In this document: in pieces, positions 5,205-62,085 of the stretch
Numbering within the stretch: the stretch's first letter is position 1
Layout of the letters: each line of letters starts with the position of its first letter
Assembly (NCBI RefSeq): GCF_007990635.1
Contig: NZ_AP019846.1
Span: 1,860,001 to 1,924,000 of the forward strand
Origin: Leptotrichia hongkongensis
GTDB lineage: Bacteria; Fusobacteriota; Fusobacteriia; Fusobacteriales; Leptotrichiaceae
Direction: 5' to 3'
DNA length: 64,000 bases
Notes under the pieces: model-generated
What the model was told of the DNA's origin: nothing
Seen by the model: the letters and a program-made list of their open reading frames with translations, nothing else
The model's database searches: none
Translations under genes and position numbers: made by a program

Positions 5205-5440
5205 AATACTAAACCCCATTTAAATAACGAATTTATTAGAAATTTTTCCAATAATTGTTTTTAATTTTATTTATATTTAAGTTTATTTCAACTTAATAAA
5301 TCGACGGAGCTTTTATTTTTTCAACTACGACTGTTTGACGACTGTAAGGAGGAGTTTCGAAGTTGGACAAATAAAAGTCGTAGTCTAGCCATAGGTGCAG
5401 GATTTGCGGCAATGAGCAATCCTGCAAAAACAAATAAAAA
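5205..5440 (+). repeat. Structured dispersed repeat, family A, copy A1
   Basis: D end motif at 5205-5238, then the conserved core. Outer stem CTTTTATTT (5310-5318) pairs with AAATAAAAG (5369-5377). Inner stem AACTACGA (5323-5330) faces TCGAAGTT (5357-5364), enclosing the internal loop CTGTTTGA (5331-5338) and GAGTT (5352-5356). Next come GTCGTAGTCTAGCCATAGG and the hairpin GCAGGATT/AATCCTGC (5397-5404 with 5418-5425) with loop TGCGGCAATGAGC. It fills the space between the membrane protein gene and tgt. Confidence 0.8.
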
Positions 5441-5500
5441 AACATAATAAAAACTGTTATTAAACAAAATAATCTATTATTAAATCTTTGAAAAAAAGTA

Positions 5501-6682
5501 TTAAATTGACTTTGGCTTTATCCATTCACTTTCTTTTCCAATGGCATAGTTTTTCAGCACTTCTTCCTTATATTCCTTAAATCTTCCATCAATGATTGCC
5601 TCACGTGCATTATCCATAAGTTTTAGCAAAAAATGCAAATTATGATATGTTGCAAGCCTTTGTCCCAAAATTTCTCCAGCCTTGAATAAATGTCTTATAT
5701 ATGCTCTTGTGTAATTTTTACAGGCATAACAGTCACAATCTTCATCAAGTGGTCTGTCATCTCTTGAATAAATCGCATTTTTTATAACAAGACGTCCATA
5801 CTTCGTAAATACAGTACCATGTCTACCAATTCTTGTAGGCTGAACGCAATCCATCATGTCAATTCCATGCTCCACAGCTTCAAGCATATCCACGGGCTCT
5901 CCCACTCCCATTAAATAACGTGGTTTATTTTCAGGCAGTTTTGGCGTGCTATATTTTAAAATTCTATACATATCCTCACGTGGCTCTCCTACCGCAAGCC
6001 CTCCTAAAGCATACCCAGCAAATCCATAGTCATACTCATATAGTTCTTCAAAACTTTTATCCCGTAAATCCTCATAAATTCCACCCTGTACAATTGCAAA
6101 AAGCCCCTGTCTATCCTTATTTCTATTTGCTTCGATACAACGCTTAGCCCATCTCGTAGTTCTTTCAATGGATGGTATCAAATATTCACGTGTTGAAAGT
6201 CCTGGAGGGCATTCATCCAGCACCATCATAATATCACTTCCTAGATTATTTTGAATCGAAATAGATTTTTCAGGCGATAAAAAATGTTTTGATCCATCTA
6301 AATGCGAACGAAAATGAACCCCCTCCTCTTTTATCTTTCTCAAATCTCCAAGACTAAATACTTGAAATCCACCACTATCAGTAAGTATTGGCTTATCCCA
6401 TCTCATAAATTTATGAAGACCGCCAAAATCATTTACCAGCTCATCTCCAGGACGTAAATACAAATGATATGTATTTCCTAAAATAATTTGAGAATTAATC
6501 TCTTCCAATTCCTCTCTAGTCATCGCCTTTACAGTCGCCTGTGTACCAACTGGCATAAATACTGGTGTTTTTATCTCTCCATGTGGTGTTTTTATAACTC
6601 CCGCACGTGCATTTCCATCTTTTTTTTCTAATTTATATTCTATTGGATTTTTAAAATCTTTATTTTCTTTTTCAATACACAT
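5501..6682 (-). CDS. tgt: Queuine/preQ1 tRNA-ribosyltransferase
   Basis: Exchanges guanine 34 for preQ1 in GUN-anticodon tRNAs, the first tRNA-bound step of queuosine formation. The TIM-barrel blocks are clear: [11 protein letters not shown] with the catalytic Asp, [26 protein letters not shown], and the second catalytic Asp in [10 protein letters not shown]. The zinc site is [17 protein letters not shown]. The open frame reaches 6712, but a GGAGAT ribosome site lies just before the internal ATG at 6680-6682 (MCIEKENK), which also removes overlap with tatD. I therefore place the start there (393 residues). It is co-transcribed with tatD upstream. Confidence 0.95.
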
Positions 6683-6711
6683 TTTATCTCCTATTTTATT
6701 TCTAAATTCCA

Positions 6712-7473
6712 TTATATTCCATAAATTTTCTTAGCATTTTCAGTAGTTACTTTAATAACTTGCTCTACTGAAATTTCCTTAATTCTAGCTACTTCTTCCG
6801 CTACATATTTTGTATAAATCGGCTCATTTCTTTTCCCTCGAAAAGGCACAGGTGTCAAATACGGACAATCTGTTTCCAGAACAATTTTTTCCAAAGGCAA
6901 CTCCTTCACAAGCTCCTTCGTCTTTTTATTATTTTTAAACGTCAAAGTACCACCAATTCCCAAGTAATACCTATCTAAAAACGGTTTTGCCGCTTCTAAA
7001 GAACCTGGATAACAATGCAAAATTCCGCCAACATTTTTATAATCCTTCAAAACATCAAGCGTATCCTGCAAAGCTTCTCTTGTATGGATAACAACTGGTT
7101 TTTTTACCCTTTCTGCAAGTTCCATCTGCTTTCTAAATCCAGCAATCTGAACATCCTTCGGATCTTCCATCCAGTGATAATCCAACCCAATTTCCCCAAT
7201 CGCAACAACCTTTTTCTCAGTCAATGCCAATCTTTCCAGTTCTTTTTCTATTTCATCATTATATTTTTTTATATCCACAGGATGAACTCCAATCACTGCA
7301 TTCACAAATGAATATCTATTCGCAAGTTCGATGCTTTTAAGTGAACTTTCCAAATCAAACCCAATGCTTACAATCCCTTCCAGCTCATCCTCAATTCTTT
7401 TCATCACATCATCGAAGTCCTCTTCAAACTGTTTATCATAAATGTGTGTATGCGTATCAATTATTTTACTCAT
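6712..7473 (-). CDS. tatD: TatD-family metal-dependent deoxyribonuclease/hydrolase
   Basis: A 253-residue protein of normal length. Metal-binding motifs of the amidohydrolase-fold TatD family appear in order: DTHTHIYD near residue 6, GEIGLDYHW near 95, VIHTREA near 130, LHCYPG near 155 and [10 protein letters not shown] near 200. Family members are divalent-metal 3'-5' DNases, and some act in DNA repair or quality control. It precedes tgt by a few bases and is probably translated from the same message. Confidence 0.92.
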
Positions 7474-7476
7474 TTT

Positions 7477-8079
7477 TTAATTCCTTTTCTGTAAAAAATT
7501 CCATTTTCCATTAATTTTCTTTATTTCAACAATTCCTTCTTTTTCTTCAAATTCTTTTATATCTTTAATTTTATCTGAAACTGTTTTTGATACTATGTCT
7601 ATCAATATTGGCAGCCATTTCTTTTCAAACTCATTTCGTGAAACACTAGACAAATATTCCATTGATTTTCCCGTTTTTTGCTCAAATATTTTATTTATTC
7701 TTTTTTGATCTTCATTTCCCAAAAGAGAATTAAAATTTAATTTGGGTGCTTTTACGGTAAATGTTAAATTTGCACTTGAACTTGAAGTGTAATCAATCTT
7801 TTTAATCCTATACTCCATACTTTTCATGTATTCTTTTAAAATTTCACCAAAAAATCTTGCTCCCAATTCATCTTTTTGACTCTCTATTTGCTTGTCAATT
7901 TCTTTTATTCCAATAGAAATATCTTCTTTTGTATTTTCAAAAAATTTTTTCTCTATTTCTATATTATTTTTCTCAATTTCTGATTTTTGAATTTTCACAT
8001 TCGGCTTAACTTCAACTTTGTAAGTTGCTGAAAATCCAAGACTTGCTGTTAGTAAAAATAATACTAATATCTTCTTCAT
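7477..8079 (-). CDS. Exported protein of unknown function
   Basis: A 200-residue protein with a classic signal peptide (MKKILVLFLLTASLGFSA, cleavage probably after FSA). No lipobox cysteine is present, so it should be periplasmic or surface-released. The mature part is charged and mixed alpha/beta: a helical first half, then IKKIDYTSSSSANLTFTVKAP strand-rich sequence. This layout matches the next gene upstream (IEKINFISKNKVEMIYTEKSP), so the two look like diverged tandem paralogues. The stop lies 3 bases before the tatD start region, suggesting one operon. Function unknown. Confidence 0.6.
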   Translation of the reverse strand: MKKILVLFLLTASLGFSATYKVEVKPNVKIQKSEIEKNNIEIEKKFFENTKEDISIGIKEIDKQIESQKDELGARFFGEILKEYMKSMEYRIKKIDYTSSSSANLTFTVKAPKLNFNSLLGNEDQKRINKIFEQKTGKSMEYLSSVSRNEFEKKWLPILIDIVSKTVSDKIKDIKEFEEKEGIVEIKKINGKWNFLQKRN

Positions 8080-60680: not shown

Positions 60681-60730
60681 CTAATACTTGGAATTTATTT
60701 TAGTATAATTACAAAAGATAATCTTATTAA

Positions 60731-60925
60731 AATAAATTCCAAGCAAAATTTCGTTAGAAGAAAAATAGCTGTTTGAGCTTTTGGAACAAATTTTAAATTA
60801 GATAAGATTGTTTGAATTAAAATTATTTATATTCAAAAGCGAGTTCTATTTTTCTTATATAAGAAAGTTTTGCGTAAAGCGGGGTTATAAGGGCATGGCG
60901 TCTGATGCTCTTACGTCAAAAAAGA
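60731..60925 (+). repeat. Structured dispersed repeat, family B, copy B2
   Basis: Hairpin 1: AAAAATAG (60761-60768)/CTATTTTT (60846-60853) around CTGTTTGA and GAGTT, inner pair GC/GC. Hairpin 2 is deleted. Hairpin 3: AGGGCAT (60890-60896)/ATGCTCT (60905-60911), loop GGCGTCTG. The 60229-61178 spacer of 950 bases holds A4, B2 and no gene that I can see. Confidence 0.8.
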
Positions 60926-61178
60926 TTTAGAATTATAAATAAAAACATAATAATTAATTAAAATACTCTAAAAAATAAGTGATTAAGAAAATAACTTAAT
61001 TAAATAGATAAAAATTTTCTTTAATGACTACAAAATAATAAAATCCAAATTTTAATTTTTTTATCTATCAAATAACAAATCAATATGGTATAATTTGTCA
61101 TAAAATATAAGTTATTTTATTTAAGTGGCAGATTTGGGGAAAATTTCAAGTATAATATAATCAAAAGGGGGATTATTT

Positions 61179-61759
61179 ATGAAAATAAAATATGTCATTA
61201 TTTTTGTAATACTGTTAATTGCGGGAAATTTTTTAAGACTTTTAATTGAGGACAAAAATATTCCAGAAATTGAAATTAGTAAGGAAAAAAATTATAAAAA
61301 GGAAAAAGCTAAAAAAGATGCTGATTTGACAAAAAGTAATGTAAAATTTGACATTAATAATGTTGAATACAAAGATTTGCTAAAATTGGGAATTAATAAA
61401 AATAAGGCTGAAAAATTTGTAAAATATAGAGACGAAGTTGGTATTATTAAAGATGTTAATGAAGTAAAAAACATTTCAGGATTTGGAAAGTCTGGCTTGG
61501 AAATCGCACAAAAATTTTTGTTTGTGGATAATGAAAAAATTCAGGATTCAACCAAAAATTATGGACGTGAAATTACAAAATACAACATTAACAAATTAAA
61601 TGAAAAAGAATTAAAAAAATAGGATTTACAAATAAGGAAATAAAAAAATTACTTCCTGAAATTGAAAAAAATAACATAAGATCGAATGTCGAGTTAGAAA
61701 AGATTATTGGAAAAAAGCGTTATGCAGAAATTGAAGATAAAATAAAGTTTATTGAATAA
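61179..61759 (+). pseudogene. ComEA-like helix-hairpin-helix protein, frameshifted near the end
   Basis: Starts after AAAAGGGGGATT. An N-terminal membrane anchor (about 4-20) is followed by a charged linker and a helix-hairpin-helix domain (DLLKLGINKNKAEKFVKYRD, then VNEVKNISGFGKSGLEIA), as in the competence DNA receptor ComEA. The frame stops at 61620 inside ELKK-TAG. One more A in the run 61613-61619 would continue it as KIGFTNKEIKKLLPEIEKNN to 61759, a second HhH-like segment (192 residues restored). It probably binds DNA outside the inner membrane. No other competence gene is adjacent. Confidence 0.65.
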
Positions 61760-61944
61760 AATATAATGTATTAAATTAAAAAAATCTGCTGCTTAAATAA
61801 TCTAATTTATTACTACTTTTATTTTATTATTTTATTAAATTGTCAAATTTATCCTTAATTATTCAGATTAATAATTTTTAATTAAAATTGATAAGAGCTA
61901 TTTTTATTAATAAATATTTTTTCTACTTTTTTATGTTTTTTCTT

Positions 61945-62085
61945 TTTTATAAAGCAAAGGGGAACAAACGCCATCCCCTTTGCAAACCCGGCTTGTCTAA
62001 GAATTTTTTTGAAATAAAAACGAAACTCGCTACGTAAAACTTCGCTCAAACAATCGTTTTCATTCCAAAAAAATCACGACAATTT
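61945..62085 (-). repeat. Structured dispersed repeat, family B, inverted diverged copy B5
   Basis: Minus strand. Stem AAAACGA (62054-62060 as complement)/TCGTTTT (62017-62023) around TTGTTTGA and GAGTT with inner GC/GC. Hairpin 3 has a perfect 10-base stem GCAAAGGGGA/TCCCCTTTGC (61954-61963, 61974-61983), loop TGGCGTTTGT. Both stems differ from all other copies yet pair fully. Confidence 0.75.

Follow-up and report, generated by a model that had tools for sequence, protein, structure and literature searches.

A stretch of 64,000 nucleotides from Leptotrichia hongkongensis, hereafter the window (positions 1,860,001-1,924,000 of contig NZ_AP019846.1 in the 2.28 Mb genome), contains nine copies of a hairpin repeat that share one internal loop, YTGTYTGA/GAGTT, within stems of four families (A1, A2, B and C). 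These copies belong to a mobile repeat family that occurs across several phyla and carries a real, selected and probably strand-specific fold. Selection on this fold, with the loop fixed while the stems change freely if they stay paired, is strongly supported by the pairing within family A, the stability of one strand, the match between a linker and a downstream hairpin loop, and covariation across 105 loci, as the initial annotation of the window had proposed. We lean slightly towards a reading in which the copies would be arms of a palindromic mobile repeat that is non-autonomous, each arm being under selection as a folded single strand, probably RNA.

Covariation was analyzed with one copy per locus from 135 loci outside the own genome, taking eight flanking bases on each side; removal of loci that were too short or had repeated stems left 105. 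All eight flanking pairs tested in this pan-bacterial stem covary, and each uses all four Watson-Crick types. Paired cells reached 83.3% versus 54.6% after shuffling, and the covariation score was 0.690 versus 0.180, a value matched by none of 500 shuffles. Shuffling does not take relatedness out of the comparison; slid controls, which preserve it, scored at most 0.239. Within family A, 95.4% of cells are paired and double changes occur at 13 of 36 pairs, most of them reflecting the difference between A1 and A2.

The hairpin described by the initial annotation is real but makes up no more than the upper section of a larger fold, whose purine-N-A tip, basal internal loop, optional GUA domain and 3' hairpin with a linker-complementary loop had been missed. 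An arm measures approximately 125-260 nt. Its first element is a long hairpin, capped by a small loop and interrupted close to the tip by the fixed internal loop YUGUYUGA/GAGUU; a linker and a 3' hairpin follow, and bases of the linker are complementary to the loop of that hairpin (5-7 bases in the best cases). Between the inner pairs, the tip starts with a purine in all 151 cases (G in 134, A in 17), continues with any base and ends with A. Neither that last A nor the two inner GC pairs are informative, being set by the search pattern, and all four bases are seen at N among the 134 G-N-A tips. Leptotrichia families A and C have a second, basal internal loop, which in A1 and A2 forms a common module: GUC-GGAG ... 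UCGUA-GAC in the former and GAC-GGAG ... UCGUA-GUC in the latter, and thus a swapped pair. GGAG is found in A only within this loop, C has GUGA there, and B has neither. Families A and B may include an extra domain, an NNNNN-GUA-NNNNN hairpin plus a longer hairpin; in the long forms, the former reads AUUGC-GUA-GCAAU in A and AGUUC-GUA-GAACU in B. The linker is CUAGCC in most A copies, and the 3' hairpin loop is GGCAAUGA in A and GGCGNYUG in B and C. An A-rich tail follows (A 1566, T 578, G 215 and C 81 in 61 tails of 40 nt, from 70 copies).

The complementarity between linker and loop was assessed on 189 matches, 10 of which were too short downstream; 84 of 152 distinct copies were retained, and these comprised 74 distinct linker/loop sets. 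Their complementarity averaged 4.69 versus 3.54 in 1000 permutations (sd 0.10, maximum 3.89), and for the 45 linkers other than CTTGA it was 3.82 versus 3.17 (maximum 3.51). The matching sequences differ between lineages: CTTGA/TCAAG in Bacteroidota and some Fusobacteriota, TCGCC/GGCGA in Variovorax, GTGGC/GCCAC in locus L148 and CGTG/CACG in Haemophilus. A sixth position extends the CTTGA match, since the base 3' of CTTGA complements the base 5' of TCAAG in 27 of 28 cases. In the A copies and most of the C copies inspected in Leptotrichia, the match is just GCC with GGC, and in copy B2 it is not clearly visible. This complementarity may represent a pseudoknot or an alternative hairpin.

Searches of the own genome recovered many further copies. 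A strict scan for the loop with a flush stem, which leaves A2 uncounted, was run over the first 26 own-genome loci together with the window and gave 33 matches versus none in reversed sequences. Looser criteria applied to 422,050 bases, most of them in stretches chosen for carrying copies, gave 73 matches versus 4 in the reversed sequences; three of the 73 start with ATGT and were later dropped. The exact loop with a 7-base gap is present 28 times in the genome and its reversed pattern once. Finally, a covariance model built from 27 A copies (R1) produced at least 78 own-genome matches at E < 0.01, some of them partial. This count is a lower bound because scoring covered 150 of 2,230 candidates and none of the window's B copies appeared among the matches.

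When stems were folded with N in place of the core, 69 of 70 own stems were more stable on the element strand than on its complement, and one was less stable. Among pan-bacterial stems, the element strand was more stable in 79 of 116 and less so in 20, the others lying within 0.3 kcal (p 1.1e-10). Single departures from the Watson-Crick consensus in own stems comprised 31 G.T, 7 A.C and 19 others, counted on related copies whose cells are not independent and after exclusion of 8 of the 73 matches that were not assigned to a family. The greater stability of one strand suggests that the selected molecule is RNA.

In the window, the shared loop and the stems listed by the initial annotation are present in all nine copies, and its count of four independent stems was right, copy B3 having a variant of the B stem. 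The loop opens with C in five copies and with T in four. Family A2 is represented by a short form at 5300-5429 (plus strand; loop 5331-5338/5352-5356; R1 match with E 2.6e-22) and by three long forms on the minus strand at 34701-34886, 43574-43759 and 60388-60573, with loops starting at 34855, 43728 and 60542, respectively. A short A1 copy lies at 49322-49446 (plus; loop 49353-49360/49368-49372). Three B copies are on the plus strand: B1 at 32122-32378, a long form with the GUA hairpin domain (loop 32151-32158/32223-32227), B2 at 60740-60935 (loop 60769-60776/60841-60845) and B3 at 62124-62380, a long form in which alone GAGTT is replaced by GAATT (loop 62153-62160/62225-62229). Family C contributes copy C3 at 61939-62083 on the minus strand (loop start 62053). 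Alignment with relatives delimits two pairs of arms: pair 1 at 60349-60984, made of the third long A2 copy (left) and B2 (right) placed back to back, and pair 2 at 61812-62367, made of C3 (left) and B3 (right). The window also holds a hairpin-less fragment (39910-39968) matching the 3' end of repeat A with its A-rich tail. A separate repeat, TTTAAATRGGGTTTAGTATTA on the reverse strand, was found at 2063-2096 and 5204-5237; it also occurs downstream of many A1 copies and is similar to the A1 upstream flank. A 6S RNA (Rfam RF00013, 49.9 bits) is encoded at 4478-4680 on the plus strand, about 600 bases ahead of the A2 copy at 5300.

All 70 own copies examined fall outside open reading frames (ORFs) longer than 300 nt, as delimited with a simple ORF caller. 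Close opposite-strand pairs among them are always divergent (11 versus 0 convergent), as they are in the 135 other loci (8 versus 0), and many other copies are single. We compared the region 59,900-62,700 of the window with other genomes of the genus (G068-G079, our own genome being G000). Pair 1 is absent from the orthologous site of G077 and, in the same alignment, of G068, G078 and G079; at this site G069 has a C-B pair instead, which is flipped in G071. Pair 2 is absent from the orthologous sites of G075 and G077 and is mostly reversed in G070. In Parabacteroides (genomes G110 and G099) the pair forms a unit of about 440-500 bp. Two such units (loci L299 and L301) share 95% identity across 442 columns, with flanks at 44% and 37%, and two others (L298 and L300) are 89% identical with flanks of 38% and 34%. 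In the four units of G110, the first outside bases form copy-specific inverted repeats (TTGAA ... TTCAA). The repeats appear to be gained and lost at sites, in many cases as two arms back to back. At locus L001, the partner of an A1 arm (541, minus) combines a C-type stem with a long tip of B type (759, plus), so arms from different stem families combine. In Haemophilus aegyptius, a divergent pair (L142, 2849-3063) lies between genes read as ilvC and a LysR-type neighbour, and an uptake-signal-like ACCGCACTTT is found at the edge of one arm.

The family extends beyond Leptotrichia and its relatives, the core being found in several other phyla. At the level of the order, R1 matched in 28 of 96 genomes; scoring covered at most 28 candidates per genome, so that a count of 28 is a lower bound. 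The exact core CTGTYTGAGCNNAGCGAGTT was found in at least 120 stretches when one genome per species was searched. Among the 80 titled matches listed were Bacteroidota, Pseudomonadota (Variovorax, Haemophilus, Methylotenera), Bacillota, Nitrospirota, Desulfobacterota, Cyanobacteriota (Gastranaerophilales) and Fusobacteriota, with Arcicella rosea and Flavobacterium sufflavum among the carrier species. Single phyla in this list may derive from contamination because many of the records are metagenome-assembled genomes. Each of 20 carrier genomes has between 1 and 47 occurrences of the pattern, and none has the reversed pattern. In an even draw from the phylum of Arcicella rosea (G105), the core was detected in 8 of 296 genomes including G105 itself, and the reversed control in none; this count requires the exact core and a purine at the first tip base, so changed cores are uncounted. 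Given this low proportion, the repeat is best described on present counts as a patchy, accessory feature. The pair from Haemophilus, the sole query tried, had no match in Escherichia coli genomes. A phage-borne element was among the readings rejected; the exact core was found in 15 stretches of IMG/VR. Two distant searches returned 3 and 4 plasmid records. Four core-bearing loci (L059, L061, L070 and L180) share P2-like phage genes, which were typed on L061 as capsid, scaffold and terminase, so prophages carry some of the copies.

Repeat REP/REPIN elements and miniature inverted-repeat transposable elements (MITEs) are the nearest known kinds. The element resembles a REPIN-type inverted doublet and fails the tests of size, foot tetranucleotide and transposase. 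As with REP (repetitive extragenic palindromic) sequences and REPINs, it consists of high-copy intergenic palindromes that often form inverted doublets, are non-autonomous and have a patchy distribution across phyla. On the other hand, its arm of ~125-260 nt exceeds the 20-40 nt of a REP, it has a fixed asymmetric internal loop together with linker:loop complementarity, it lacks an unpaired GTAG/GGAG foot, and several carriers are devoid of a Y1 transposase gene. ERIC, RUP, NEMIS and Bcr1 are each one sequence family, whereas the stems of this element are unrelated between lineages, just the fold and the loop being kept, and no parent insertion sequence (IS) was found. These four, which are named as bacterial MITEs (PMC3733652), are likewise small, non-coding, intergenic inverted repeats that fold at the RNA level, and the element shares with MITEs terminal inverted repeats and gain or loss as a unit. 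The terminal inverted repeat (TIR) families that accompany TIRYT genes (PMC3733652) and the "atypical secondary structures" that adjoin subclass 2.6 of Bacteroidetes tnpA-REP (PMC6006769) are also inverted, partly self-complementary repeats scattered through genomes of Bacteroidetes and others. They are found on either side of a Y1 gene, while here a true core was found at one of 42 Y1 loci; the comparison is with their published descriptions, and overlap is possible.

No named family for the repeat was found in the literature searched, where the sequence-string matches listed had no title on a bacterial repeat, and Rfam 15 gave no match at gathering score either in the window (only the 6S RNA, elsewhere) or in 18 pan-bacterial loci (only tRNA). 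Five own loci were also submitted, and the weaker matches were all below gathering score (E 0.12 to 5). The initial statement that the element has no named family therefore holds for these sources. A systematic catalogue of repeated stem-loops has been compiled (Petrillo et al. 2008, PMC2267715), the main text of which does not contain the words Fusobacterium or Bacteroides. Its sole Haemophilus influenzae family, Hin-1 (31 nt), corresponds to uptake-sequence repeats (PMC2267715). Readings of the loop as a k-turn or a hammerhead were rejected, as the tandem GA fits and the remainder does not. It is possible, and we suggest it only tentatively, that the repeats form an undescribed class of mobile repeat present in several phyla, with two structured-RNA arms, a loop that serves as a receptor site, a linker:loop pseudoknot and a spread independent of HUH, TnpB and reverse transcriptase (RT).

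Under the favoured reading of a non-autonomous palindromic repeat, the arm would act as RNA and fold while it is transcribed, and a protein, either from the host or encoded in trans, would bind the fixed loop and aid the spread of the unit or protect it. The unit itself would be moved by a transposase supplied in trans, and the solo arms of Leptotrichia (A1 and most A2) may be units that lost one arm. Several observations weigh against this reading. No fixed-length target-site duplication was found, the flanks being the copy-specific inverted ones mentioned above, and G076, of the same genus, had no R1 match among the candidates scored. No clear 3' hairpin was recognized by the rules used in 42 of 155 and 68 of 152 distinct copies (two rule sets). 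In pan-bacterial stems, G.T departures (40) were not above A.C (56; first seven positions of 128 distinct stems). RNA rather than single-stranded DNA therefore has good support in Leptotrichia and is less certain in other carriers. A TATAAT-like -10 hexamer has a fixed place in family C only, where 10 of 13 copies have it 12 nt ahead of the hairpin (11 copies in the scan were without anchor). An all-against-all comparison of 1006 ORFs in 151 loci revealed no enzyme and no parent IS or transposase; its largest neighbour clusters, found at 13 and 9 of the 151 loci, had an ABC-transporter ATPase and a sensor kinase, respectively, as representatives. Cytidine deaminase and the P2-like phage genes formed four-locus sets. 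A composite or cassette unit was also rejected, as the genes between same-strand copies are ordinary (the AAA/DUF234 ATPase in L319, prpD and DUF711 in L087 and L107). Locus L319 (G353:C2:314500-329500) has five exact same-strand cores in approximately 10 kb and a duplicated 2 kb segment with the ATPase gene; an integron attC was considered from these copies, the genes between them were ordinary, and no integrase search was made.

Among the options suggested by the initial annotation was the folded end of an element transposed as a single strand. In their behaviour the copies do resemble the ends of a mobile unit, with empty or swapped sites and near-identical units in unrelated flanks, but the Y1 transposase is missing from the own genome and others, and replication-strand bias was absent. 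That the arms are single-stranded DNA hairpins recognized by an HUH/Y1 transposase (TnpA-IS200 or RAYT), like REP/REPIN or the ends of IS200/IS605, seems unlikely. REPINs are inverted doublets of hairpins too (PMC3116915), and the tip GCGNAGC has the same sequence as an extra-stable DNA mini-hairpin, a GNA loop closed by two G-C pairs (PMC4686876). The 134 G-N-A tips and the lack of a G.T excess in pan-bacterial stems also speak for such hairpins. Y1 genes are present in 48 of the 96 genomes of the order and in 13 of 20 other carriers. Against this, no Y1_Tnp was detected in the own genome, G070 and G077, each with at least 28 repeat matches, or in the remaining 7 of the 20 carriers. The 42 Y1 loci examined, part of all Y1 matches, yielded two scan matches, the true core at L281 and a loose ATGT match at L075 that was taken as chance. 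Families B and C lack the GTAG foot, and 32 of the 70 own copies are on the leading-strand side versus 38 on the lagging one (replichores assigned from the GC skew of the stretches examined). Other movers fared no better: TnpB was absent from the own genome, G069, G070, G071 and G077, all with at least 28 repeat matches, and RVT_1 occurs in just two of 13 genus genomes (one match in G000 and three in G077). Since Y1, TnpB and RT, among which linkage was checked for Y1 alone, are each absent from several carriers and no replication-strand bias was seen, an IS200/REP mechanism is not supported by these sequence searches. Within the genus, many TnpB genes tend to occur with few repeats (58 TnpB and no R1 match in G076, 45 and 11 in G079); G068, G074 and G075 have 6-9 TnpB and likewise at least 28 repeat matches.

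Somewhat more doubtful is the proposal that duplication has spread a multi-copy family of small-RNA genes, each with a promoter of its own. The strand-specific stability, the linker:loop pairing, the hexamer of family C and a location outside ORFs independent of gene orientation would all be expected of such genes. The hexamer position, however, varies between families, so a common fixed-place -10 box was rejected, and the hairpin is followed 3' by the A-rich tail with no T-run. Gain and loss of pairs at orthologous sites and the restriction of the exact core to 8 of 296 genomes in the G105 phylum also argue against it.

A role as cis-acting terminators, attenuators or mRNA-stability hairpins of neighbour genes is very unlikely. 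Of the neighbour arrangements of the 70 own copies, 25 have both genes in the same direction as the copy, 25 both opposite, 15 are convergent and 5 divergent. Being outside ORFs and commoner between convergent than divergent genes would suit such a role, but 25 of the 50 copies between co-directional genes face against them, and the neighbour genes are of many kinds. A transcript end, as initially offered, is unlikely in Leptotrichia, where orientation is unrelated to neighbour genes and the tail is A-rich rather than T-rich. Least credible of all is that the copies are recent duplicates drifting at random with no selected structure, the outcome that the initial annotation had named as its refutation: A1 copies are very similar to one another, but the A-family pair counts, strand-specific stability, linker:loop complementarity and covariation over 105 loci contradict it.

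The carrier DNA ranges from about 30% G+C in the window to 68% at a Variovorax locus (L095), and over this range one fold and one loop were kept while nearly every stem base changed, so the family clearly exemplifies intergenic repeats of bacteria in which selection acts on structure alone. As it has no Rfam 15 match, the repeat goes unlabelled by the Rfam library in the genomes that carry it. The fixed loop predicts a putative conserved binding partner. The spread of non-autonomous repeats where no IS200/REP enzyme is present can be put to the test with this family.

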